Origin: Lunularia cruciata
Taxonomy: Eukaryota; Streptophyta; Marchantiopsida; Lunulariales; Lunulariaceae
Direction of reading: 5' to 3'
Length of the DNA: 64,000 nucleotides
Assembly: GCA_948567375.1 (NCBI GenBank)
Contig: OX419756.1
Location: forward strand, 57,364,333 to 57,428,332
Part shown: in pieces, positions 2,320 to 63,520 of the stretch
Position numbering within the stretch: position 1 is the first letter of the stretch
How the letters are laid out: each line of letters begins with the position of its first letter
The notes under the pieces: model-generated
What the model was told of the DNA's origin: nothing
The model's input: the letters and a program-made list of their open reading frames with translations, nothing else
The model's database searches: none
Made by a program: the position numbers and the translations under genes

Positions 2320-4300
2320 ATGTGCAAAGATCCCGAAAGGCAACCTCACAATTGATTGTTGTAAATGGAGTCCTAGAAGGCAATCAAGTGAGAGTATTAA
2401 TTGATCCGGGAGCAACAAAGAATTTCTTATCTTGCTCTATTGCAATAAGATTGGGAATGGATCTAGAGAGAGATGGGAGTGAAGAAGTAGAGTTACCTAA
2501 CGGGCAAACAAAGAGGATTGAATCATTACCTAAACGGGTCACATCTCTATAGGAGAATACCAGGAAGCAATTGAGTGGTGAGTGATACAATTAGCTCGTT
2601 ATGATGCAATCTTAAGCATGCCATGGATGGAGCATTACAACCCTATGGTAGATTGGAGGAAGAAAGTAGTGAGAACCGACCAATGATCAATCATTGGGGT
2701 TAAAGAAAAATCACCCAAGCATGATCTGCCTCTATATGTCATAGGGACGACAACTGTCTATAAGACCAATAGATGTTTCATGGGTCTAATAAGAGAAGTC
2801 CACAGTGCACAACTCGATGGAAAATTTCCTGAGAAATTGAAGGCTGTGGTGGATGAATTTCAAGATGTCTTTCCCAATGATCTACCCTCAAGATTACCAC
2901 CAAAAAGGAGAGTAGATCATAAAATTGAGACACTCCCAAGGAAGACACCTCCTTGTAAGGCCTCATATCGTCTATCATCTCATGAGTTGGAGGAGTAAGA
3001 CTCAAATTGAGGAGATGTTGCAAAAGGGGTTCATCCAACCTAGCATATCACCACATGGGGCTCTTATCTTGTTTGTGAAGAAGAAGGATGGTACAATGCG
3101 CATGTGCATTGACTATCAAGGTCTCAATCAGCAAACAGTGAAGAAAAAATACCCCTTACCTTGCATGGATGACCTGTTTGATCAACTCCATGGAGCGAGA
3201 TACTTCACCAAATTGGACTTGTGGAGTGGTTACAATCAAATCCAAATTGTAGAGGAGGATGTGTACAAAATTGCCTTTCAAACCAAGTATGGCTACTTCG
3301 AGTATCTTGTGATGCCTTTTGGCCTCACCAATGCACTTGTCACTTTCATGAGTCTAATGAATGACATATTTTCTCCATACTTAGATAAGTCTGTTATCGT
3401 CTTCTTAGATGATATCTTAGTGTACAGTAGCACAATGACAGAACACAAACAACATCTACGAGAGGTCTTCCAGATTCTAAGACAGAATCACTTGTATGCC
3501 AAAATCTCAAAGTGCAAGTTTGGCAAGTCTGAAGTAGACTATTTGGGGCATAGAGTAAGTGCAGATGGCATTCAAGTATTGACGGATAAAATAGAGGTCA
3601 TTCAAAAATGGAGTTCCCTAGAAGATAAGACTCAACTCAAGAGATTCTTGGGGTTGACGGGATGCTATCGTAGATTTGTCAAGGAATTCTCCAAGGTTGC
3701 ACAGCCATTAACAACACTACTTGGCAAGGGAAAGAAGTGGACATAGGGAACCGCACAAGAGTTGGCCTTTCAAGAATTGAAAGTTGCCTTGCTACATGCA
3801 CCAATCTTGAAGTGGTATGACCCAAAACGTCCAATCAAGTTGGCTATAGATGCATCAGGCATAGCAATGGGAGCAGTCCTACAACAAGAGTGGCATGACA
3901 AATGGCATTTAATTACATACTTCTCTTGAAAGTTGTTATCGGCAGAGTGCAACTACCACACCACAGAACAAGAAGAGTTGGCCATTGTTATGGCAACCAA
4001 GCATTGAAAGCACTATCTGGGCAAGAAGGCATTAGTAGAGACAGACCACAAACCTCTAGTCTACCTTGAGACGCAAAAGGATCTATCTCGTTGCCAGATT
4101 TGGTGGGCAGAGTGGCAACAATGCTTCAACAAGACAATCACCTACATGGAAGGGAGGAAGCAACTTGCAGATGCATTCACCTACATGCAAATGGAAAACA
4201 ACTTGGTGGTAGGGGTTAAGATTATCCCTAAATTCTGGCCAGAGATTCTGGTTGCTACAAAAAATGATCCACAGATTGTAGAAGCACAATCATCCAAAGG
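2320..4300 (+). pseudogene. pol of family A: protease, reverse transcriptase, RNase H
   Basis: The aspartic protease is marked by the D-x-G-A active-site region at 2403 in the context VLIDPGATKNF. Reverse transcriptase follows from about 2830 to 3750, with [26 protein letters not shown] and the catalytic FLDDILVYS box at 3402. RNase H lies at about 3750-4150, ending near the tether region before the integrase. Order and motifs are those of Ty3/gypsy. This is a broken fossil and codes for no full-length product here. Confidence 0.93.
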
Positions 4301-4389
4301 CGTCACTAGTACCAAGGACTCACCTTTTGTGATGGCAGATTATGGATCCCAAATGTCCCAGAATTATGCACCATCATTCTAGCGGAATG

Positions 4390-5675
4390 TCATGATTTGG
4401 CCATTGCAGTTCATGTCGAAGTGGACAAGATCTTGGATGTAATCCAATGCCATTACTATTGGCCTAAGATGAGCAACGACGTGATGGACTACGTGCGCAA
4501 CTGCCTACTTTGTCAACAAAACAAAGCTTCTAATCAAGCTCTTGTAGGGTTCCTTCAACCTCTCTTCACGCCTACCCAACGTTGGGAACAAGTGAGTATG
4601 GATCTCGTCTGTGAATTATCCAAGATCACCTCATGGTTTGACTCCATTGTGGTCTTTGTGGACCGGCTTAGCAAAATGATTCATGTACACCCTACCACCA
4701 AGGATGTGACTACTCCACAACTAGCTCAATTATACTTAGATGCAGTCTTCTCTCACCATGGCTTGTCTAGAGTACTTATCACTGATAGAGGTACTCAATT
4801 CACCAGTTTGTTTTGGCAAACACTCTTTGGTTTCTTCAAAACCAAGTTGGCCATGTCCATAGCGTACCACCCAAAAACAAATGGCCATACAGAGCGGGCT
4901 AATTGCACGATTGAAGACATGTTACGCGGCTTCACCTTAGAAGAGCAAGAGAGGTGGGACACCCTACTCCCGTTGGTAGAATTTGCTTACAACAATTCAA
5001 TGAATGCATCCACCCAAGTCACTCCGTTCTTCCTCATGTATGGTGAGCATCCGTTCACACCTTCTAGCTTGATGAAGATCCGTCCAATGGCTTCCAAGGT
5101 TGATGCAGCCAACATGTTTGTTTCTAGAATCCAACAAGGTGTGGAGAGCGCCAAGCACAAATTACAGATTGCACAAAATTGATAGAAGCAGTATGTTGAC
5201 GCATACCGTAGGCACATGGAGTTCAATGTTGGGAATCAAGTGTGGCCATCAACAACCAACCTTACATTAGTTGGATCTCGTAAGCTCATACCTCATTTTA
5301 TTGGGCCTTTCTTGATTCTTTGTTGCGTTGGCATTGTGGCCTATCACCTTGAGCTACCACCACACATGAAGATCCATCTTGTGTTCCATGTTTCCTTACT
5401 ACGTTGATATGCTCCCTGCTTGGGCCAGGGTCATTCCACCCAAGATATTTGACCTTGTCCGACACTCATTGATGGCACCAAGGAATATGAAGTGGAGCGT
5501 ATTCTCCAAAAATGCATGCGTGGTACTTGCCATCCACGGGTGGACTATCTAGTTCAATGGAAAGGTCACTCCCTCTATGAAGCAACCTGGGAGCCCGCTA
5601 CCAATTTGACACATGCACCGGTGTTGGTGCAAGCATTTGAGCAACAGTTGCACAACGAGGACATTGCGTCTTAAA
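4390..5675 (+). pseudogene. Integrase and chromodomain of family A
   Basis: The integrase starts with the end of a zinc-binding HHCC domain (VRNCLLCQQNKA, about 4485). The catalytic core has its first acid in SMDLVCEL, its second in ITDRGTQFTS near 4780, and its glutamate in GHTERANCTIEDM near 4885. A GPF-type C-terminal module lies near 5300. A chromodomain (VDYLVQWKGHSLYEATWEPA, about 5537-5596) closes the region. Chromodomains bind modified histone tails, and in chromoviruses they are thought to guide insertion into heterochromatin. The stretch is partly open but broken. Confidence 0.92.
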
Positions 5676-38819: not shown

Positions 38820-39480
38820 TTGCAGCACCCAAGAAGGAGTAAAACAACCTCTCCTTCAAGGAAAGCCTTCTATTTTGTGGGAATCTGATTTATGTTCCAA
38901 CCAAGGGTGATCTTTGACTTGTGCACCTCCAAGAAGCCCATGACTTGCCAATTGCTGGTCACATGGGTGTGGACACGACCTTGGGCAATCTCTAACACCA
39001 ATGGTGGTGACCCAACATGACACAAGATGTTTGAGAATTTTTCCAATGCTGTAAGAGTTGCCAATGCAATAAGGCCAACAACATGAAACCAAGTGGACTC
39101 CTTCAACCACTCTCCATTCCATCTGCTCAATGGGAACAAGTGAGCTTAGATTTTATCACATCCTTGCCCAAGACAAAGCAAGGTCATATAGCAATCATGG
39201 TGTTTGTGGAAAAGCTTAGTAAGAAAATCCATTTGGCACCAACCTTTGATACCATGGATGCTCCAACATTGGCATAAATCTACTTCAACACTACCTTCAA
39301 GCATCACGGGATGCCTTTTGTACTCATCTCTAATTGTGATCCTCAATTCACTGGGAAATTTTGGCAAGCACTCTTGCATATACTTGGCACCATGTTTGGT
39401 TTGTCCATGACCTATCATCCTCAAATTGATGGACAAATGAAAGTGCAAATTGCACCTTAGAGGACATGCTTTGTGCCTTT
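38820..39480 (+). pseudogene. Integrase core fragment, opposite strand to its element
   Basis: The + strand reads as zinc-binding and catalytic integrase text: AHDLPIAGHMGVDTTL near 38935, a Cys pair near 39050, then the open frame from 39083 with QWEQVSLDFITSLPKTKQGH (first acid) and VFVEKLSKKIHLAP. A second-acid region follows near 39330. The surrounding LTRs and chromodomain text are on the - strand, so this piece is flipped relative to them or comes from another element. It is a fossil fragment. Confidence 0.8.
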
Positions 39481-53339: not shown

Positions 53340-54955
53340 TGCTTCACTTGCAAAGTATGATATTTTATTGTAGTTGTAGGATTTTGGTCAATTCTGGAAG
53401 TTCAAAGAATTGCATGTCTATCCAATTAGCAAAGAAATTGAGTATTCCTATCAAGTCAATAATTGGAAGTAGATTGATGATGATGGATGGTAGAAAAGGT
53501 TCTACATTTTGTACCTTGTATCTTGTTACCTTCAAGATTGGGAAGGAATATTTGGAATGTATGAGGTTTATAATGGCACATCTACACTACGATGTCATTC
53601 TAGTACTACATTGGCTTGAACATCATAAGGTCTAATTTGATTGGACACGGCAACAAATTCAAGTACAACACCAAGGTAGAAATTTCTGATTAGGTTGTCT
53701 GGCACCTTTGAGTAAGACACCTTTGAGTAAGACACTCCTAAGATGTGAAGTTTATAAAGGAAGCAACCATAGAGCAAGCTTTGAAGGAAGAGAAGTCCCA
53801 AGATGGGAAGTTTGTAAGGAAAGTGGCCATTGTGCAAGCTTTGAAGGAAGTGAAGTCCCAAGGTGAGAAGTTTGTCAATGAAGCAGCTATAAAGCAAACT
53901 TTGGAAGAAGATAAGTCTGTTTTTGCGGTGTGGATCAAGTTGATTGCTCAAGGAGAATATGAGGAGAGTGAGGAGCCTCATTGAGCAAAGGTTGATCAAA
54001 TATTTTCCGGATGTGTTTGCAAATGATCTACCAAAGAGATTACCCTTTGATTCTGGTATGCCCTTCAAGATTGAGTTATTACCAAGGAGTACTCTAGTGA
54101 GTACTCCAATGAGTAGACCAATCTATCAGCTCTCACCAAAGCAATTGGAGGAGTTGAAAACAACACTCACGGAGTTCTTGGAGAAGATTTCATATGACAT
54201 AGTACATCTCCTTGGGGAGCACTAATAATATTCATTCCAAAGAAGGATGGAGGACTTCATTTTTGTATTGATTATCGTGAACTCAATAAAAAAATAGTGA
54301 AGAATGCATACCCCTTGCCTCAAATTGATGACTTGCTTGATCAATTGAGTGAAGCACAATACTTCTCCAAGTTGGATCTTTGCAACGGCTACTGGTAAAT
54401 CCTTATCGATAGGAAGGATGTGCAAAAGACTGCCTTTCACACAAGGTATGGACATTTTGAGTGGAGAGTTTTGCCTTTTGGGCTCACTAATGCTCCAACA
54501 ATCTTCATGGATCAGATGCATTGGGTGTTGGATGGACTATTGGTTTGATATGTGGTGGTGTTCTTGGATGATATCTTAATCTACAATAAGAGAAAGGTAG
54601 AACATGTGAATCATGTGAGAGAAGTCTTAAGACTACTACAACAATGGAAGTTGTATTGCAAGAAGTCTAAGTGTGCCTTTTTGCAAAAGGAAGTTACCTT
54701 CTTGGGTCACAAGATCTTATCGGAGGGGGTCAAGATGGAAAAGGAGAAAATCAAGGCCATCATTAATGGCCTTCTCCAAAGGATGCTATTGATGTATGAG
54801 CATTTAATGGATTGGCTAGCTTTTATCAATGGTTCATCCACTACTATGCTCATGTGGTCGCACTATTGCCAATCTCTTGGGGAAGAACTTGAGCTTTCAA
54901 TGGACCAACAATGTCATGCCATTTGTAGTGTTGCATCTAGATTGCTCGGACACTA
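53340..54955 (+). pseudogene. Protease and reverse transcriptase of family B copy 2
   Basis: The protease is recognised by ILVNSGSSKNCMS (D-S-G-A/S type, near 53390) and the flap-like HYDVILVLHWLEHH near 53600. Reverse transcriptase runs from about 54000 with [33 protein letters not shown] and the catalytic VVFLDDILIYN at 54561. It fades into RNase H text near 54900. The order is Ty3/gypsy. The element is a fossil. Confidence 0.88.
53749..53928 (+). repeat. Three 60-bp tandem repeats between protease and reverse transcriptase
   Basis: Units code for a 20-residue helical motif of the type KF(I/V)xxxAxIxQALKExKSQ. Nucleotide identity is high between units (AAGCTTTGAAGGAAG, AAGTCCCAAG, GGGAAGTTTGT blocks). 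A 17-bp duplication (ACCTTTGAGTAAGACAC) lies just before, at about 53704-53737. Confidence 0.85.
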
Positions 54956-56470
54956 GAGTTCTAGTGACAGTAGTTAGAGTTATTTCAGCAATATCTCAGA
55001 GACTACTTTTCGATGGTCAGATTTTGTGTTTAGGGTACTGACTTCACGGTGGGGCCCCCCATCACTTTGCACCGTCGAGTGTGCCGTCAATAGGACCGTT
55101 AGGGTTTCAGAGCTAGCTCGAGTCCAGAGGGTATAGTTTCAAAGTGAGCTCCAGAGAGCTCACTTCTCTGATGTTGAGCCTTTGAGTTCTTGGCTATGGT
55201 GGATAGAGGCGATGAGCGTCACTTGGATTCTCTATGCTTGAGTGGGTGTGGTTTGACTGTAATTAGTGCCCACTTGTTGGCAGTTTATAGAGTGATAGAT
55301 CAAGTACTGATCTGAGTTGAGTTGAGTTGAGAGTGGTAAGCAATCTGATTACATCAGAGAAGTGAAGTCAAGGGGAAATTGGGTGCAGGAACTTTGAGTG
55401 TTGGTGGTATTTCCAAGCTCGGTGGATCGTTGGTAGTTCGATTCAAGTTCAGTATTCCCCTAGTGTGCAGAAGCTCATTTGGTTGATGCAGATTTGGCAA
55501 TAAGGCAGATGGTGTGTGAAAATGTTGGCCAAATTTTGATCAAAGAAGGAGCAAATTTTGAGCAGTGATTGTGATTTTGAGCTCAAGAGGTGAAGGCAAG
55601 ACCAATTTGCTACGAGTTGGGCTCAGAAAGTCAAATTGAAGGTGGAGTTGGGAAGCTATTCTCATGAATTTGTGATTTGGAAAAACCCGTGTTGTCAATT
55701 TGGCTCGAGTGGAAAGTTAGCGGGGGATTTGGCAAACAACCAACTTTAGGGTTTACATCAGATTTTACGTCAGATTTTGGTTGGAATTTACGTTAGATTT
55801 TGGCCAGATTTGGAGGACTTTCGCTAGTTTGGAGGACTTTCACAAGTTTGGAGAAGTTTTGCCAGATTTTACATCAGATTTTGGTTGGAACTTATGTCAA
55901 ATTTTGGTTGGAATTTACGTTAGATTTTGGCCAGATTTGGAGGAGTTTTGCTATTTGGCCAGATTTCACCAAATTTTACGTCAGATTTTGGTTGGAACTT
56001 ATGTCAGATTTTGGCCAGATTTGGAGGATTTTCATTGTTTGGCCAGATTTGGAGGCAAGTTTGGAGAAGTTTTGCAAATTATGGAGGAGGTTTGAAGTGG
56101 CAAGAAGAAATGCCTAATTTGGGCGTTTCAAGGCTTCGAGGCATAGGGCTGTGGGCTATGAGAGTCTACAAAGGCCTAGAAGGGCCAACAAGCCAACTTG
56201 ATGGCATGAGGCTAGCTAGTTTAGAGTAGATCTTGGTCATTGGTTGGCAAACTTTGCCTTTCCTGCTAGATTGTGCGCAATAGGGTTTGACCCTAGATCT
56301 CTTGTTCCCAGATTGGTGCCCTAGCCAACTAGTCCACCCTCACTTGTTATCCTAGTGACTGTGCCACTATTATCTATACACATGTAGCTTTGGCTAGGAG
56401 AGGCAGTTTGATCTCATTCTTGGTGATCTTGGTAGCTTAGGACTTAAATTCAAACTTCTCTTATGTCAAA
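54950..56470 (+). repeat. Probable 5' LTR and leader of family C
   Basis: Non-coding, more G+C-rich than the flanks, starting where family B text stops. A candidate primer site (TGGTGACAGAGTTAG) lies at about 56477 and would put the LTR end just before it. Without a second LTR the boundaries are guesses. Confidence 0.4.
55745..56095 (+). repeat. Imperfect minisatellite in the family C leader
   Basis: Words of the type CAGATTTTGGTTGGAATTTACGT, TTTTGGCCAGATTTGGAGGA and AGTTTGGAGAAGTTTTGC recur five or more times in varying order. They give repetitive open frames (WPDLE-, FWLEF-type text) that are not real genes. Confidence 0.85.
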
Positions 56471-56803: not shown

Positions 56804-58260
56804 TTGGTATTGGCACTTGGTGGTGTTGGCACTTGGTGGGGTTCTTGTGGTTGTGACTTGCGGTTGCAGTTGGTGGTTCTAGTTTGCTGTTGCGGTTACT
56901 TTATCACGACGGAGTTCTTTGGGGATTCCAAAGGAGATAGCTTTGTAGTACATAGTGGGTTTACTTGGAGTGGTGCTCGGTATCAGCTTGTATCTCAAGT
57001 CCTAGTGAGGGAGGAGATTGACTTTGAGTTGGAGTTTGACATAGGAGCTGATTCAGTTGAGAGTGCACTTGGTGTGTCTGCACCGTTGTTGTGGGACATG
57101 GATGAGATTTATGGGGCCTCCAAAGGCCCTAGGCGTTATTCTAGTACAGTGGGTACCATTGAGTTGGATGACTTCATCTAGGAGTTTGATAGTTGGTGTG
57201 ATCTACAGTAGATGCGGAACCCGACTTTGTTCACACCCTTCATGGCATGGAAGAGGTTGTTTCAGCACTTGGAGGGTCCGCCGATGGATGACTACCATGA
57301 GTTCAGGAGAGCTCATTTGGAGGAGATTGAGTTATGGAGACAATATTAGTCTCCACATTATATCTCCATCACTTCAGGCTTGGTGGCCAAGAGTAGATTG
57401 GCTGTACCTACGAGTTCTAGCTTGAGTAGTGTGGGTGGAGCTAGTGGAGGTGCACTAGCTGGAGATAGTGCTACTACGAGTGGAGGTACCATTGCAGGAG
57501 GTGATGTGGTATCGGGGTTTAACCCCATGGTGGAGTTCTTCCTATGTTTGAGGTAGAACTACCAAGGAGTGCGGACTGACAAGCTGAGGAGCTTGCAGGA
57601 GTTCCAGCGGAAGGCTGGAGAGAGCCTATGCAAGGCCTACACTTGCATGAGGCGGCTGATCAGTTTCACTCAGGGAGTTATTGAGGCCCAGACAATCCAG
57701 TTTTGGTATGGAATACTGGATAGGGAGTTGTGACGTAGAGTTTGTGATGCTACGTTGTTACAAGCTACTTTGCATACTTTGGCAGTGGTCTTTGGTTTGG
57801 CTGAGCGTATTGAGCTCAACATGGTGGAAGAGAGAGTGGTGACATCTGGATTTGGTAGGGATACCTCATCCATGGCTGTGACTTCTTCTAGAATGCAATA
57901 GAGTGCATCACGCCCAATTGGTTTTTGAGGACAGGGTGGATAGCCCAGATCCTATGGAGCGAGTGGGGGGCCTAGTAGAGTTAGACCCTTACCCTCATTT
58001 TTGGGTCAGCAATAGCCAGTGAGTGGTGGTGTTGCTTGTGGGACTTGTGGTGGACCTCACCATCGAAGAGAGTGTACTTAGGGCAATGGACCTAATACCT
58101 TGGGTGCATCACTGCTAGCACAGAGGCAGTGTGAGCATTGCTACAGATTTGGTCACACTAGTGAAAGGTGTTTTGACCTACACCCGGAGTTACGGAGTGG
58201 TAGAGCTGCTATGGCTGGTAGTAGAGGAGCTCCAGTTCATGGAGGATGAGGTGGTGGTAG
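56804..58260 (+). pseudogene. gag region of family C
   Basis: Capsid-like text runs from about 57090 (WKRLFQHLEGPP near 57250) to 57860, with a helical segment SLQEFQRKAGESLCKAYTCM near 57590 typical of Ty3/gypsy capsids. A zinc knuckle follows at about 58132-58175: CEHCYRFGHTSERC, an exact C-x2-C-x4-H-x4-C. Gly/Arg-rich text comes after it. This is a fossil. Confidence 0.75.
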
Positions 58261-59035
58261 AGGATCTACACCTAGTAGGGGTGCAGTACCTGCCCTTACT
58301 TCTGATACAGCTATGGCTACTCGGATTGAGCAGTTGGAGCAAAGATTGGCTAGTATAGCTATTGCTCAGAGGAGATCAAATTCGAGTGCTAAGGCTTCCA
58401 CTTCATATGCTGGTGATAGAGATGCTTTGGACTTCATGTGCGGAGCAGCACAGGTGGATGCATTTGCAACAATGACTTGGAGTGCAGTACGTGCTCCACA
58501 GCCTAGAGGAGCATCAGTGGAGTTGGACCCATACAGAGGAGAGGTTGGGAGATAGGTCAGACTTCCCCAATCTTTCATGCTATTTGAGGCATTACAAACA
58601 ACATACATGGTTCCTAGACGTCCTAGTGTAGGTGTGGTAGGTGGTGATGGAGTTGATGGACTACCTGCTACTCAGCCACCTGTTACTACACAGACTAAGT
58701 CTAGCATGATGTTGGGGGAGGCTCAACTGATTATGCGGCGTCCTTTGTTTTTGGCCAGTGATATGTTTACATTGGGAGTTGACCCAGCTCTAGTGTTCCA
58801 ATTGGCTGCCACGCTGTGTGAGAGTAGGGATGGTGCAATTCCTACTACTAAGGCAGAGGTAGTTGATAGTGGAGCTAACTTGGTTGAGGACCATGAGATC
58901 CGTTCAGCAACCAATGGTTTATGGCAGGCAGTAGCGGCTAGATTTGAGGAGTTGCCAGCTAGACTGGAGGAGTTGCCAGCTAGACCGGCCTTTGAGAGAG
59001 CCCGGTTTACACTTGGTGTTGTCCTATTGGATTAG
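58261..59035 (+). pseudogene. Linker region of family C between zinc knuckle and protease
   Basis: Two open pieces (58313-58555 and 58577-59035). The first opens with a short coiled coil (RIEQLEQRLASIAIAQRR). The second has low-complexity text and a direct repeat EELPAR/LEELPARP near 58955-58990. No known domain. It belongs to the polyprotein by position. Confidence 0.55.
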
Positions 59036-59053
59036 TAGAGGGGGATTTTCTGT

Positions 59054-59780
59054 TTGGTGGGACCTTCAGGGAAGGTATATACATCACAAAGAGTCTTGTT
59101 AGACTCTGGTGCACAACCCCTTATGTTGGGGAAGGCTATAGTTGTCAGTCTAGAGCTATGGAAGACCGATGTGGAGAGGTGTCCATTTCAGATCCAAAAA
59201 TCTCTAGGTGGTGGTTCAACACAGTACATCACACGTGGAGAGCTTGTTGTCCAAGTTCAGCCTGGTCATCTGATTGATAGCTCGGTGGTGAGAGCTCAAG
59301 CTATTGCGACGATAACTGAGTCATATGATGTGCTAGTTGGGAAAGCAGTGTTATACCCCATGGGTTTCAGCATTGACTATTGGAAGGAGACAACCTCTTA
59401 TAGACCTGATTGGCAGTCTGGTGAGGGACAGGTATGTCACCTACCAGTACGCTTCAGTAGTGGCAATCTTGGCTCATTACAGTCCGGGACCATGGCAACA
59501 TCAGTTTTAGCTTTCAATGGTATTGTTACTTGGCTTGGTGACTTGTTGGAAGGGAATGCCCATGCAAAGGATACTCTAGTACTAGAGGAGATCACTCGGC
59601 TTTGGAGTACAAGTGGGATTGTTCCATCCACCTTGGATGTTCCATTGTGGAGTTCAGAGGAGGCAGTGCAACAACATGCAGATCAGTGGTGCAGCAGGCT
59701 TGGAGTGGAGCCTTTGTACCATCAGGAGATGAGTGTGAGGATGAGCCTCCAGATGCAATTGCTTTGACACCTTTGGATAC
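59054..59780 (+). pseudogene. Aspartic protease of family C
   Basis: RVLLDSGAQPLMLGKA carries the D-S-G-A active site at 59102. Protease-like strands follow through about 59370 (RGELVVQVQPG, TESYDVLVGKAVLYPMG). The open frame continues to 59767 with text of unknown role that leads into the methyltransferase domain. Retroviral-type proteases cut the element polyprotein. Confidence 0.85.
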
Positions 59781-59789
59781 CACACTCAT

Positions 59790-60780
59790 TGCTTGGCAAT
59801 ATCCAGTAGAGGAGATATGCCTATTGGAGTTGTTTGGTGGGATCAACACCGAACTAGCTGCGGTGTTACAAGCGGGTATACGAGTACAGAGGTACTTGTA
59901 TGTAGAGAGAGATGAGACTGCTAGACAAGTCTCTCTACATCATGTGGCACACTTGGCCTATTGGTATCCGGAGTTATTACCAATGTTAGCAATCAAAGGT
60001 TACCAGAAGGCCCTACCAGGTGACATTTCCTTATTGGGGGCGCATGACCTAGAGAGACATGGGCCTATGATGATTCACTTGGTGATTTTTGGATGGCCAT
60101 GTCAAGGACATACACGTGATGGTAGAGGATTGGGTCTTCAAGATCCTCGGTCTGGTGTGTTTTGGGAGATGTTATGGATATTACAACATCTCAAGGTTCA
60201 TCAGTCCATTTCTCCAGCTTACCTTTTGGAGAACATTCCTTTGATGGGTGATTCTCGCACCAGAGTGGTGGCAAGTATACATTAGGTCCATTCTTGGATG
60301 GGACCTCTGTATTGTTAGATGCAGCTAGAGTGGGATCACGGGCTCATTGTCTTCGTCTTTGGTGGACAAACCTCTTACCCAGAGAGGTTCTACAGCGCGC
60401 TTATGATGGGATTCAACGACTTGACCACATCCTTGTTGATGATATCTTAGATGTTGGGTGTCAGTCTCAGACAATGGTAGTGGCTGATAGGTCACCTATG
60501 GCAGTGATGAACCTAGTTGGACAGCCTAGAGCTGCATTTCCCACACTCATGAGTTTCCCAAGCTCTCATGCTTTTTGAGAAGGAGGACCTGGACTTGTTT
60601 GGGACTCATAGTTACAACAGTTGGTGGAGCCCAATGCTGATAAGAGAGAGCGGGCGATGGGTTTTCATACCGGTATTACCGCTGTTCCTACAGTGTTAGA
60701 GGCATCTAGGCGTCAGGTGTTAGGTCAGGCTATGGACCTAAACTGTTTGACCTGGATTGTGAGCCTTAGCTTGGCAGAGC
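59790..60780 (+). pseudogene. C5-cytosine DNA methyltransferase domain inside family C
   Basis: Motifs appear in family order. Motif I, LLELFGGINTELAAVLQAG at 59815 (F-G-G at 59833, the AdoMet loop). Motif II, YLYVERDETA near 59896. Motif IV, FGWPCQGHTRDGRGLG, with the catalytic Cys at 60100 inside Pro-Cys-Gln, then DPRSGVFWEMLWIL. Motif VI, YLLENIP, with Glu at 60229. Motif VIII-like, GSRAHCLRLWW at 60333. Motif IX-like, KRERAMGFHTG near 60642. Motif X-like, GQAMDLNCLTWIV near 60730. Such enzymes put a methyl group on C5 of cytosine. The order with Cys in IV and Glu in VI excludes N6-adenine enzymes of the DIRS type. The domain lies between protease and reverse transcriptase of one polyprotein, all on one strand, which argues against chance insertion. 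It is part of a broken fossil element. Confidence 0.88.
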
Positions 60781-61210
60781 AGCATAGGATGCACTTGATA
60801 GGCATCACCACTCGGACACTTGTGAGCCCTATGCCTATCAAGACAATTCAAGCACATGTTGGGAGCAATGGACCAAGTGGACATGGTATTCTTGAGACAC
60901 ATCCAGTAGCTACTAGGGAGAGTGGTCTACTTGGAGTCCATCCAGGTGAGCATGGGCTACTTGGATTACACCCTTGGTCCCCATGAGATGCAACTAGAGG
61001 ACGTGTGGAGCTTGCAGCCAAAGTGGAGGGAGTTTTCCACACAGAGGTTGGGACCTCTAGTGGTCAAGAGCATGACACTATTGCTCCCAAGAGCTCAATG
61101 TAGCAGCCAGTCAGTACGTCTTCCACTCCTACTATAGTTACAGAGGATACTTGGGAGCCAAATCTTGGACCCAAGCTTACTGGAGAGGAAAGACGGAGGG
61201 TTTGGAGGTT
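60781..61210 (+). pseudogene. Linker of family C between methyltransferase and reverse transcriptase
   Basis: Open text with no domain. A Gly/His/Pro-rich patch (LLGVHPGEHGLLGLHP, near 60925-60975) is a small internal repeat. Confidence 0.5.
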
Positions 61211-61211
61211 C

Positions 61212-62210
61212 TTGAGGAGTCACACGAGTTGTTTTGCCTTCAATATGAAGGATTTGGGTGCTCTAAAGGGACTTGGTATACAGATTGAGCTGACTAGCAA
61301 CACACCGGTTTTACGACATCCTTATCGATATAGTGATATGGAGAGGATATTGATTCAGAGCCGGAGTAGTGACCTTTTTGAGGCTGGTTTGGTGGAGATT
61401 TCACATGGAGAGTATGCATCAGCGAGAATGATGCCAGCCAAGAAGGATATGCATGGCAACTATACAAATAGGCGGATGTGTGGAGATTACCATCCTATCA
61501 ACCGACAGATTAGGGCTGATCGGTATGCCATGCCTACACCAGAGGAGATTTTTGATGCGATTGGGCATGCAAAGGAGTACTTTGGATTCTTGAGCAGGAT
61601 ATCATCAATTGCCGATCAAGGAGGAGGATAAGTCCAAGACAACATTTTGGGATATTGATCCTCACGGCAAGGATGTGTTATATCAGTAAAGGTTCTTACC
61701 ATTTGGGTTAAAGAATGCTACTGCTGAGTTCTAGAGGATCATGGATAGGATCCTAGTTGGATTGGATTTTGCTTGGTGCTATATTGATGACATTTTGGTT
61801 TATAGCACTACTGTGGAGGAGCATGAGAGACAATTGTTGGAGGTGTTTGAGAGGTTGAGATCTCATGGAGTCAAATTACATCTTGGGAAGTGTAGGTTCT
61901 TCCACAAGCAGGTTGAGTATTTGGGTCACACTATCTCTCCCGGAGGACTTGGTGTTCAACAGACCAAGGTGGAGGCTATTGCACGTATTCCTTGGCCTAT
62001 GGATGTGAGCAAAGTGCGAGTATTCCTTGGGTTGGCAAACTTCTATCGCCCTTATGTTAGAGGATTTAGTGCCATTGCCAAGGCCTTGACGAAGCTGACC
62101 AAGCTTACACAGGAGTGGTATTGGGGAGATGAGCAAGAGAGAGCTTTTGTAGAGCTCAAGGAGAGATTGACATCTGCTCCTATTTTGAGGAGACCAATCA
62201 GGGGATGACC
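61212..62210 (+). pseudogene. Reverse transcriptase of family C
   Basis: RT text starts with PVLRHPYRYSDMER and AGLVEISHGEYASARMMPAK, then RRMCGDYHPINRQIRADRYA (fingers), the catalytic YIDDILVYS box at 61780, and a palm/thumb region with KCRFFHKQVEYLGHTISPGG near 61895 and VRVFLGLANFYRPYVRGFS near 62015. These are textbook Ty3/gypsy RT motifs. It is a broken fossil; the last 155 codons are open. Confidence 0.93.
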
Positions 62211-62620
62211 ATTTCAGGTTCATACTGATTGGAGTATGTTGGGGCTTGGAGCGGTGCTCACCCAGTAAGAACTCCTTCTCCTCATCATAGCATAGGCCAC
62301 CCATAGGCAACTAGCCTATGCTAGTTGCTCCAACAATTCAGCGGAGGCAAAGTATAGTTCATATGAGGGAAAGTGCTTGGCAGCAGTTTAGGCAGTAGCA
62401 CATTTTCGATGTTACCTATTTGGTAACCCCTTCACTCTCATCACTGATCATCAGCCATTGAAGTGGTTGATGGAGTCCAACAAGCTTTTAGGGAAGCTTG
62501 CACGATGGGCTCTGATTTTATAGGAGTATGATTTCACGGTTGTTCACAGACCTGGAGTGGTGAACCGTGATGCAGATGGGTTTAGTAGAAACCCATGTCC
62601 CAGCCAGTAGGATCAGACCG
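62211..62620 (+). pseudogene. RNase H of family C
   Basis: FQVHTDWSMLGLGAVLTQ (first acid near 62225), YSSYEGKCLA-type text near 62350, ITDHQPLKWLM near 62440, and the final VHRPGVVNRDADGFSR box near 62545. Order and motifs fit Ty3/gypsy RNase H. Confidence 0.88.
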
Positions 62621-62649
62621 GAGGACGTTGGCATGGTGAGACAGATGAA

Positions 62650-63520
62650 AAGATGGTGCCAGGTTGGCATGCATCGGCCTTTCTGTGTATATTTGCAGAG
62701 GCTTTGGTGGTATCTCTCTTAGTGCATACAAGAGGAGTTATTGAGGTCACAGATCCAAAGAGTGAAGATATTGGTACAATTCAGCAAGACATTCATGATG
62801 ATGCCTTAGTGATGGACTATCTTTGCACTGGTGTTGTGGGTGGCACATTTGGGGCCAAGGAGAGAGACCGTGTTCTTCAGCGAGCTAGACGGTTCAGATT
62901 GGATGGTAGACACCTTTTGCATGTATGAGAGGATGGTAGAGTGCGAGTAGTACCACTTCCATCTTAGAGACCACAATTGGTCCGTCATGCTCATGAGGAG
63001 CTAGGACATTTTGGAGTAAAGCATATGTATAGCTTACTCTAGAGTCATTATTGGTGGCGCGGTACGCAGATTGAGGTACAGCAGTTTGTTGCCAGATGTG
63101 TGGTTTGTGACCAAGTTAGAGCATCATTCAATGCTCCTACGCCACAGTTACACCCATTACCTATCATGGGATTGGGTTACAGTTGGAGTTTGGACTTCAC
63201 CGGACCTTTACCGCTGACTGTGAGACATCAACGGTATGTGTTGGTGATGGTGGAGCACTTCTCCAAGTGGATTGAGTTGGTGGCACTTCCTGACAAGTCT
63301 AGTGAAGGGACAACTTACTTGTTCCTGGATCGAGTTCTTAGTCATTTTGGGGCACCAGCTGAGGTTTTGACTGATCAAGGTACAAAGTTCTTGGAAGAGT
63401 TTCAGGTCTTGTGTGACAAGGCTTTGATTGATCATCGTACTACATCCTGAGATCACCCTAAGGCAGATGGCTTAGCAGAGAGAGTGGTTCAGACGGTGTC
63501 AGGGAATTTGTTTGGCCTCA
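62650..63520 (+). pseudogene. Integrase of family C, 3' part missing
   Basis: A zinc-binding domain with H-A-H-E-E-L-G-H near 62985 and CVVCDQ near 63100. The catalytic core has SLDFTGPLPL (first acid near 63195), VLTDQGTKFLEEF (second, near 63370) and KADGLAERVVQTV (glutamate, near 63476). The text stops near 63520. Whether this family had a chromodomain cannot be told. Confidence 0.9.

Follow-up and report, generated by a model that had tools for sequence, protein, structure and literature searches.

The stretch of DNA analysed here, called hereafter the window (64,000 nucleotides), raises the question of whether a DNA cytosine methyltransferase can be an integral part of a Ty3/gypsy retrotransposon, and what such an enzyme would do there. 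The sequence-only reading had proposed a C5-methyltransferase built into an element of this kind, between protease and reverse transcriptase (RT) and without ends of its own, and both points were borne out. The domain, of Dnmt3-like layout, lies at 59806..60791 on the forward strand, between an aspartic protease active-site motif (LLDSGAQP, 59096..59119, forward strand, recognised as a motif only) and the YIDD motif of the RT (61780), all three on the same strand. It recurs in many copies, and was found at the equivalent position in the 22 other copies read (in one of them, L024, the domain itself is interrupted by an insert). We regard the structure of the element, and the presence of a C5-methyltransferase domain in it, as close to certain.

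The window copy starts with a terminal repeat, called A (A1 for this 5' one; 54912..55351, forward strand, 440 bp by blastn), which is 89% identical to A of copy L013. Directly 3' of A1, an imperfect stretch, CATCAGAG... (55352..55365, forward strand), is tentatively assigned as a primer-binding site; it bears partial likeness to the initiator-Met primer type, which a control gypsy family of the same genome shows in full. The first open reading frame (ORF1) survives as a remnant at 56804..61091 (forward strand; Gag, protease and methyltransferase), which matches residues 1-1425 of ORF1 of copy L009 with 84-89% identity by tblastn. Within it, motif reading places the Gag zinc knuckles at 58037..58171 (forward strand), one near-canonical and one canonical CX2CX4HX4C (58130-58171). 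Between the two reading frames, an in-frame UAG followed by CAGCCA (61101..61109, forward strand) has the form CARYYA of a type I readthrough signal. The ORF2 remnant (61104..63498, forward strand) holds RT, RNase H and integrase, with the H2C2 and rve domains in frame at 63043-63450, and lacks its PHD end. The element breaks off at 63499, which corresponds to about position 8449 of L013; the copy is truncated on its 3' side at 63498, and the 3' repeats are absent from the window. The methyltransferase is also broken, by a frameshift near 60.3 kb and two stops, at 60576 and 60609. The window copy is best read as a dead, truncated member of an autonomous Ty3/gypsy family that was active recently and reached a high copy number.

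The element leader, between A1 and ORF1, contains imperfect tandem repeats (TTTTGGTTGGAA..., 55743-56060). Other Ty3/gypsy relics are present in the window at 2997-5173, 38957-39433 and 54261-54868, the last directly upstream of A1, and share 27-36% identity with ORF2 of the methyltransferase family. A search of the window with Rfam at gathering thresholds gave no match.

Inspection of the methyltransferase motifs, numbered by reading against DNMT3A, placed their starts in the window copy at 59821 (I), 59899 (II), 60091 (IV), 60223 (VI), 60336 (VIII), 60639 (IX) and 60720 (X). The order I-IV-VI-VIII-IX-X is unrearranged, and PC and ENV are present, as in the Dnmt3 layout; phage enzymes have the same order. 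Motif IV (GWPCQG, 60091..60108, forward strand) contains the catalytic Cys and motif VI (LLENIP, 60223..60240, forward strand) the Glu-Asn pair, and these residues, with P96-C97-Q98 and E140-N141-V142 as a whole, are invariant in 12/12 open copies. In motif VIII, four of these 12 copies each have one R-to-C change in the arginine pair, and motif X is degenerate (GQAMDLN versus GRSWSVP of DNMT3A). Against the Pfam profile PF00145, the check that the sequence-only reading had suggested, the window piece fell just below the cut-off of 22 (21.2 bits, E 2.3e-4), whereas the three open ORF1 frames scanned were all above it (L009 30.5, L014 31.8 and L011 31.2 bits). Among solved structures, the open-copy domain matched DNMT3A (4.5e-10), DNMT3B (7e-7), HaeIII (5e-4) and DRM-type chains (0.012), and the joined string of the window copy likewise had DNMT3A and DNMT3B on top (1e-5).

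The domain is not restricted to this locus. With the methyltransferase piece of the window as a query against the surrounding genome (565.8 Mb), the best 150 of 9987 first-look candidates were scored; all 150 were full-length, with 89-93% identity apart from the window itself (100%), and in the copies read the domain stood next to protease and RT. A genome search with PF00145, in which the best 123 of 2161 first-look candidates were scored, left 117 places after six rows corresponding to host genes were dropped. Twenty places were common to these 117 and the 150 of the first search, which gave a Chapman estimate of about 847 copies, a rough figure and probably a low one, both lists favouring well-kept copies. 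The family thus probably numbers hundreds of copies. Besides the window, 22 copies were read as sequence. Twenty regions of 10 kb were taken, of which 18 (L009-L026) were the element and two (L027 and L028) host genes. Most of the 18 were chosen for long frames, so that the proportion with an open methyltransferase (12/18) is not that of a random sample. Frames of 1428-1432 aa were present at six of the 150 scored places.

Open copies gave the full coding organisation. ORF1 is 1428 aa long in L009 and L010 and comprises zinc knuckles, the protease motif and, at residues 999-1325, the methyltransferase. ORF2 (1037 aa in L013) comprises RT, RNase H, integrase and a PHD finger. Pfam matches for the L013 ORF2 were RVT_1 (3.3e-31), RT_RNaseH (4.1e-35), H2C2 (2.6e-18) and rve (1.2e-12), and this order of RT, RNase H and integrase, with rve and H2C2, is that of Ty3/gypsy elements. 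Gag and protease were read from motifs, as Pfam gave no match for either in the window or in the open copies. The PHD finger (L013:8999-9178, E 2.2e-10) forms the C-terminal end of ORF2, the place taken by a chromodomain in chromoviruses, and its nearest solved relatives are those of CHD4, KMT2D, KMT2C, PHF12 and KDM5B. When it was searched for in the genome, the best 150 of 8356 first-look candidates were scored, and all 150 were at 99-100%.

In 23/23 copies, the in-frame ORF1 and ORF2 are separated by a UAG, and the hexamer that follows is CAGCCA, CAGCTA or CAGTCA, always CARYYA. In PMC5382211, UAG-CARYYA is given as the type I readthrough signal found in tobamoviruses, among others, and a leaky stop between Gag and Pol is described as rare, in a Copia element (PMC3441728). 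Given the position of the UAG, the methyltransferase would be made together with Gag, and RT and integrase by readthrough. The RNA 3' of the UAG was inspected for a fold that might stimulate readthrough, and nothing unusual was found (z 0.65).

The repeats of the element proved to be of an unusual kind. Ordinary LTRs, assumed at the outset from the 449-bp repeat, were rejected: the 3' A copies continue into a constant sequence, B. Thirteen of the 18 copies show the order A (449 bp)-coding-B (106 bp)-A-B, although for some of them the 10-kb region ends within the outer A or B. Of the other five, L015 agrees as far as its sequence extends, L009 is incomplete at the 5' end and has its second A cut off, and L016, L020 and L024 have rearranged repeats. 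Among these, L016 stops at B1, in a way that recombination between B1 and B2 would produce, A is inverted in L020, and L024 has a pair of near-identical direct repeats of 693 bp together with the insert within its methyltransferase. L017 is inserted in the 3' part of another family member.

The element ends are TGTC...GACA, of the TG...CA type, and in all six copies that have both flanks, target duplications of 4 bp lie outside the first A and the last B. Such integrase-type ends with a short target duplication are proper to Ty3/gypsy elements. Two terminal LTRs of like composition, also expected of them, are not present: the left end is A, the right end A-B, and there is an extra internal B. 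The order A-coding-B-A-B is instead that of the split repeats of DIRS elements. DIRS elements have a tyrosine recombinase, and have neither a DDE integrase nor a target duplication. In this respect the element departs from them, as both rve and duplications are present.

The sequences at the repeat borders point to an order of replication. A polypurine run, AGGGGGGCGA, stands directly before the first B, and the primer-site-like stretch directly after the first A; from these positions, ordinary reverse transcription would give B-A-coding-B-A. Of the 15 B-GC-A joints seen, 11 form the palindrome GACAGCTGTC and three a one-base variant of it, while that of L012 is further changed. We infer that the integrated form is the B-A-coding-B-A product shifted circularly, as would result from the opening of a circle at GACAGCTGTC. 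Divergence between A1 and A2 inside copies was on average 1.63% (10 copies; L012, L021 and L025 left out), lower than the 2.3-2.5% between A repeats of different copies, so that the A repeats of a copy seem to be renewed together. In L012, the two A repeats are only 89.4% identical to each other, yet its A1 and the A of L013 agree at 98.6%, a pattern suggestive of a mosaic or a gene conversion.

A methyltransferase-free chromovirus of the same genome served as a control family. It has ordinary LTRs in 3/3 loci of 10 kb (L045-L047; about 743 bp in L045), which indicates that neither the assembly nor the method generates A/B repeats as a rule, and its Met primer site is canonical. Pfam detected a chromodomain in two loci (1.2e-15 and 2.1e-16) and, in the same two loci at E 0.01, no methyltransferase. 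Both families are thus Ty3/gypsy elements with a chromatin-reading domain after the integrase; the chromovirus differs by its ordinary LTRs, its Met primer site, its chromodomain and the lack of a methyltransferase match. It is very abundant (best 150 scored of 47941 first-look candidates), so that the enzyme is not needed for multiplying in this genome. The chromovirus LTR (L045, L046 and L047) holds a tandem duplication of about 139 bp.

Variants among 18 copies were inspected for constraint on the methyltransferase. Amino-acid-changing versus silent changes were 69/32 among singletons and 5/12 among variants common to at least four copies (P 0.005). A similar shift was found for the pooled protease, RT, RNase H and integrase (166/83 versus 6/15 at at least four copies, P 0.0008). 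At the threshold of four, no such shift was seen for Gag (P 0.21) or for the interval between Gag and protease (P 0.58). With sharing thresholds of 3, 4 and 5, the methyltransferase test gave P values of 0.04, 0.005 and 0.01 for the 18 copies, and of 0.10, 0.04 and 0.09 for 23 copies, the older ones being added. These comparisons of copies provide moderate evidence that the methyltransferase has been constrained in the transposing lineage.

The window copy has changed from C to T, relative to L013, at 114/494 CG, 171/889 CHG and 111/2845 CHH sites, compared with 81/4074 for transitions in the opposite direction, where L013 has A or T and the window copy G or C. Such decay is what prolonged CG and CHG methylation leaves behind, and is to be expected where a plant element has been silenced. 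If the lineage methylated its own CGs, their loss would be expected. The CpG observed/expected ratio was 0.44-0.47 in 12 of the 13 copies measured and 0.40 in L025, versus 0.47-0.56 in seven control-family loci and 0.61-0.82 in five host methyltransferase loci. The CHG ratio was 1.09-1.19 in 12 copies and 1.03 in L025, versus 0.66-0.74 in the control loci L038-L044; this difference is not proof of self-methylation, because codon content differs between the families. The control ranges leave out L037, the window's own relic (CpG 0.38, CHG 0.49), and L045-L047, taken as 10 kb with flanks (CpG 0.38-0.54, CHG 0.57-0.67). The CpG and CHG ratios give no convincing case for a strong signature of self-methylation; the CpG gap to the control family is too small to decide.

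Where the enzyme came from was approached by one blastp of the L009 domain against a single small set of proteins. Phage C5-methyltransferases scored 83 (Epa40), 81 (CRP-603), 75 (Vibrio 1.148.O) and 64 bits (121Q), and eukaryotic enzymes 58 (human DNMT3A), 55 (mouse DNMT3C), 48 and 37 (host DRM) and 44 bits (host DNMT3). The comparison favours the phages, as three of the four were chosen as top matches of the same domain (561 phage records at E 0.1); phage 121Q was chosen with the host DNMT3 as query. The enzymes of Pseudomonas phage Epa40 and Roseobacter phage CRP-603 are the best match among those compared, at about 30% identity, and differ in standing outside retroelements. The tree that the sequence-only reading had proposed was built with 13 rows, without MET1, CMT, DNMT2 or algal ones, and did not place the element firmly, on its very long branch (2.54) with a fork support of 75/86. 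Descent from the host DNMT3 is unsupported, since that enzyme scores below the four selected phage enzymes and the tree placement is not firm; 'Dnmt3-like' is a description of layout. By these scores, the methyltransferase is perhaps of prokaryotic or viral source. Pattern searches of viral and prokaryote contig collections confirmed no relatives.

The host had been thought to look like a seed plant, which was not upheld: the set of auxin response factors (ARFs), a B3 match and the DNMT3-type genes fit a complex thalloid liverwort, a relative of Marchantia. Three ARF places (five exon matches) were found, and Marchantia has three ARFs. The B3 domain of a host ARF agrees almost letter for letter, apart from exon joins, with PDB 6sdg, which we take to be Marchantia polymorpha ARF2 (230 bits, versus 174 for ARF1 and 158 for ARF5). 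The host methyltransferase loci, labelled from motifs (L001 was also compared with PDB), are of DNMT3 type without rearrangement (two), of DRM type, in which motifs VI-X precede I-IV (two), CMT-like (one) and MET1-like (one). Of the 566 Mb of the assembly, about 558 lie in eight large contigs. For Lunularia cruciata, a genome of about 580 Mb in which Ty3/Gypsy elements multiplied in bursts is reported (PMC9985172), and the dioicous liverworts studied so far are described as typically having microchromosome-like sex chromosomes (PMC13182070). Lunularia is a likely host.

The precedents that had been named, in dinoflagellates and charophytes, proved right (PMC5890265). As described there, KnitGypsy-Dnmt3 of Klebsormidium nitens, the single Ty3/gypsy precedent, has gypsy domains, a non-rearranged intronless Dnmt3 and, per the legend of Fig. 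4c, DIRS-like repeats; the present element, compared by description, shares with it the Ty3/gypsy domains, the unrearranged methyltransferase in the polyprotein and the DIRS-like repeat order. The two differ in several respects. In KnitGypsy-Dnmt3 the methyltransferase is described in the Pol ORF, whereas in the liverwort element it is in ORF1 with Gag and protease, a UAG preceding the RT. The liverwort element has a PHD finger after the integrase, of which the accessible text of the published description makes no mention for KnitGypsy-Dnmt3. The host is a land plant here and a charophyte alga there, and copy number is high in the liverwort element, while K. nitens is reported to have fewer copies than Symbiodinium (PMC5890265).

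The dinoflagellate elements are more distant in organisation. SymbioDIRS-Dnmt3 is a retroelement that, by its description, combines a Dnmt3 domain with A-coding-B-A-B repeats, but it belongs to another retroelement class, with a tyrosine recombinase in place of a DDE integrase. SymbioLINE-Dnmt, also a retroelement with a C5-methyltransferase upstream of the RT, is described as a LINE without terminal repeats and with an orphan methyltransferase type. A 2025 survey, with reference to the 2018 paper, mentions retrotransposons with DNMT3 in streptophytes and dinoflagellates and names LTR Copia and DIRS (PMC12344493). By described domains and repeats, the liverwort element would be of the KnitGypsy-Dnmt3 kind, a likeness which does not imply kinship. 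Searches of the open-access literature gave no land-plant report of a methyltransferase-bearing retrotransposon. As far as these searches go, it is the first land-plant case; the widening of the range that had been predicted thus holds as to a new host group, bryophytes rather than seed plants.

How might such an element use its enzyme? Most ribosomes would stop at the UAG, so that the methyltransferase would be produced as abundantly as Gag and enter the particle with it, RT and integrase being the minority readthrough product. The enzyme would then methylate the CGs of the element's own cDNA before integration, and inserts would arrive pre-marked; the mark might keep the cDNA from being taken for foreign DNA, or might dampen the new copy once it is inserted. 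A circular intermediate, implied by the repeat order, would be opened at the palindromic B/A joint GACAGCTGTC, and the PHD finger would direct integration to chromatin, the role ascribed to chromodomains in chromoviruses. For the combined statement of a recently active, methyltransferase-bearing Ty3/gypsy family with this mechanism of cDNA self-methylation, we put the probability at about 0.57. That methylation of its own cDNA is the enzyme's main role is a tentative view, to which we give somewhat less than even odds. Doubtful, in our estimate, is the full chain of a working de novo methyltransferase, perhaps of prokaryotic or viral descent, made at Gag dosage via the leaky UAG, marking the cDNA of an element whose circle is opened by a DDE integrase and whose target is chosen by the PHD finger.

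Other functions have to be weighed against this. The domain may have been kept as a part of the particle that binds protein or nucleic acid, in packaging or as a chaperone, and methylates nothing. The degenerate motif X would fit, as would a CpG depletion hardly above that of the control family and the absence of methylation by KnitGypsy-Dnmt3 in a yeast assay, which its authors call inconclusive; in the same study, SymbioDIRS DNMT3s methylated CG de novo in yeast (PMC5890265). The invariance of Pro-Cys-Gln and Glu-Asn-Val in 12/12 open copies, and the motif VIII arginines, kept save for the single R-to-C change in each of four, make such a binding role unlikely. Modification of the element's RNA instead of its DNA has been proposed for SymbioLINE by de Mendoza et al. 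(PMC5890265), and translation with Gag would put the enzyme near the genomic RNA. It is nevertheless very improbable here, since in the solved-structure set the domain matches DNMT3A with 42 bits and the RNA-modifying DNMT2 with only 16.5.

The enzyme may also act on the host, by methylation in trans or by competition with host enzymes, and so disturb silencing. Hosts use this enzyme class to silence such elements, and the copy number would permit a dosage effect; however, the window copy has decayed strongly at CG and CHG, a sign of ordinary plant-type silencing applied to the family, and we give this reading a low probability. Self-restraint, in which pre-methylated inserts are silenced at once, damage to the host is limited and the element is thereby favoured, was touched on by de Mendoza et al., who name slowed retrotransposition benefiting the host as possible (PMC5890265). 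It is equally hard to credit for a family with hundreds of copies, several of them young by the divergence of their A repeats (mean 1.63%, 10 copies). Finally, the chance landing of a host methyltransferase gene or retrocopy in one retroelement is refuted by the same position in 22 other copies and by at least 150 scored places; moreover, other enzymes in the comparison match the domain better than the host DNMT3 does, and we give this explanation practically no weight.

Under the self-methylation reading in its full form, the life cycle of a Ty3/gypsy element would join DIRS-like circular DNA with integration of the retroviral type. The A/B repeats, arranged as in the algal element, suggest either an old streptophyte lineage of methyltransferase-bearing gypsy elements or a link between circular intermediates and DNA methylation that arose repeatedly. 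Methylase-encoding transposons have been stated to be absent from land plants (PMC6338049), and if the host is a liverwort, the family contradicts this statement. Being young, abundant and carried by a relative of Marchantia, a laboratory model, it would make the question of a transposon-borne silencing enzyme testable in a land plant.
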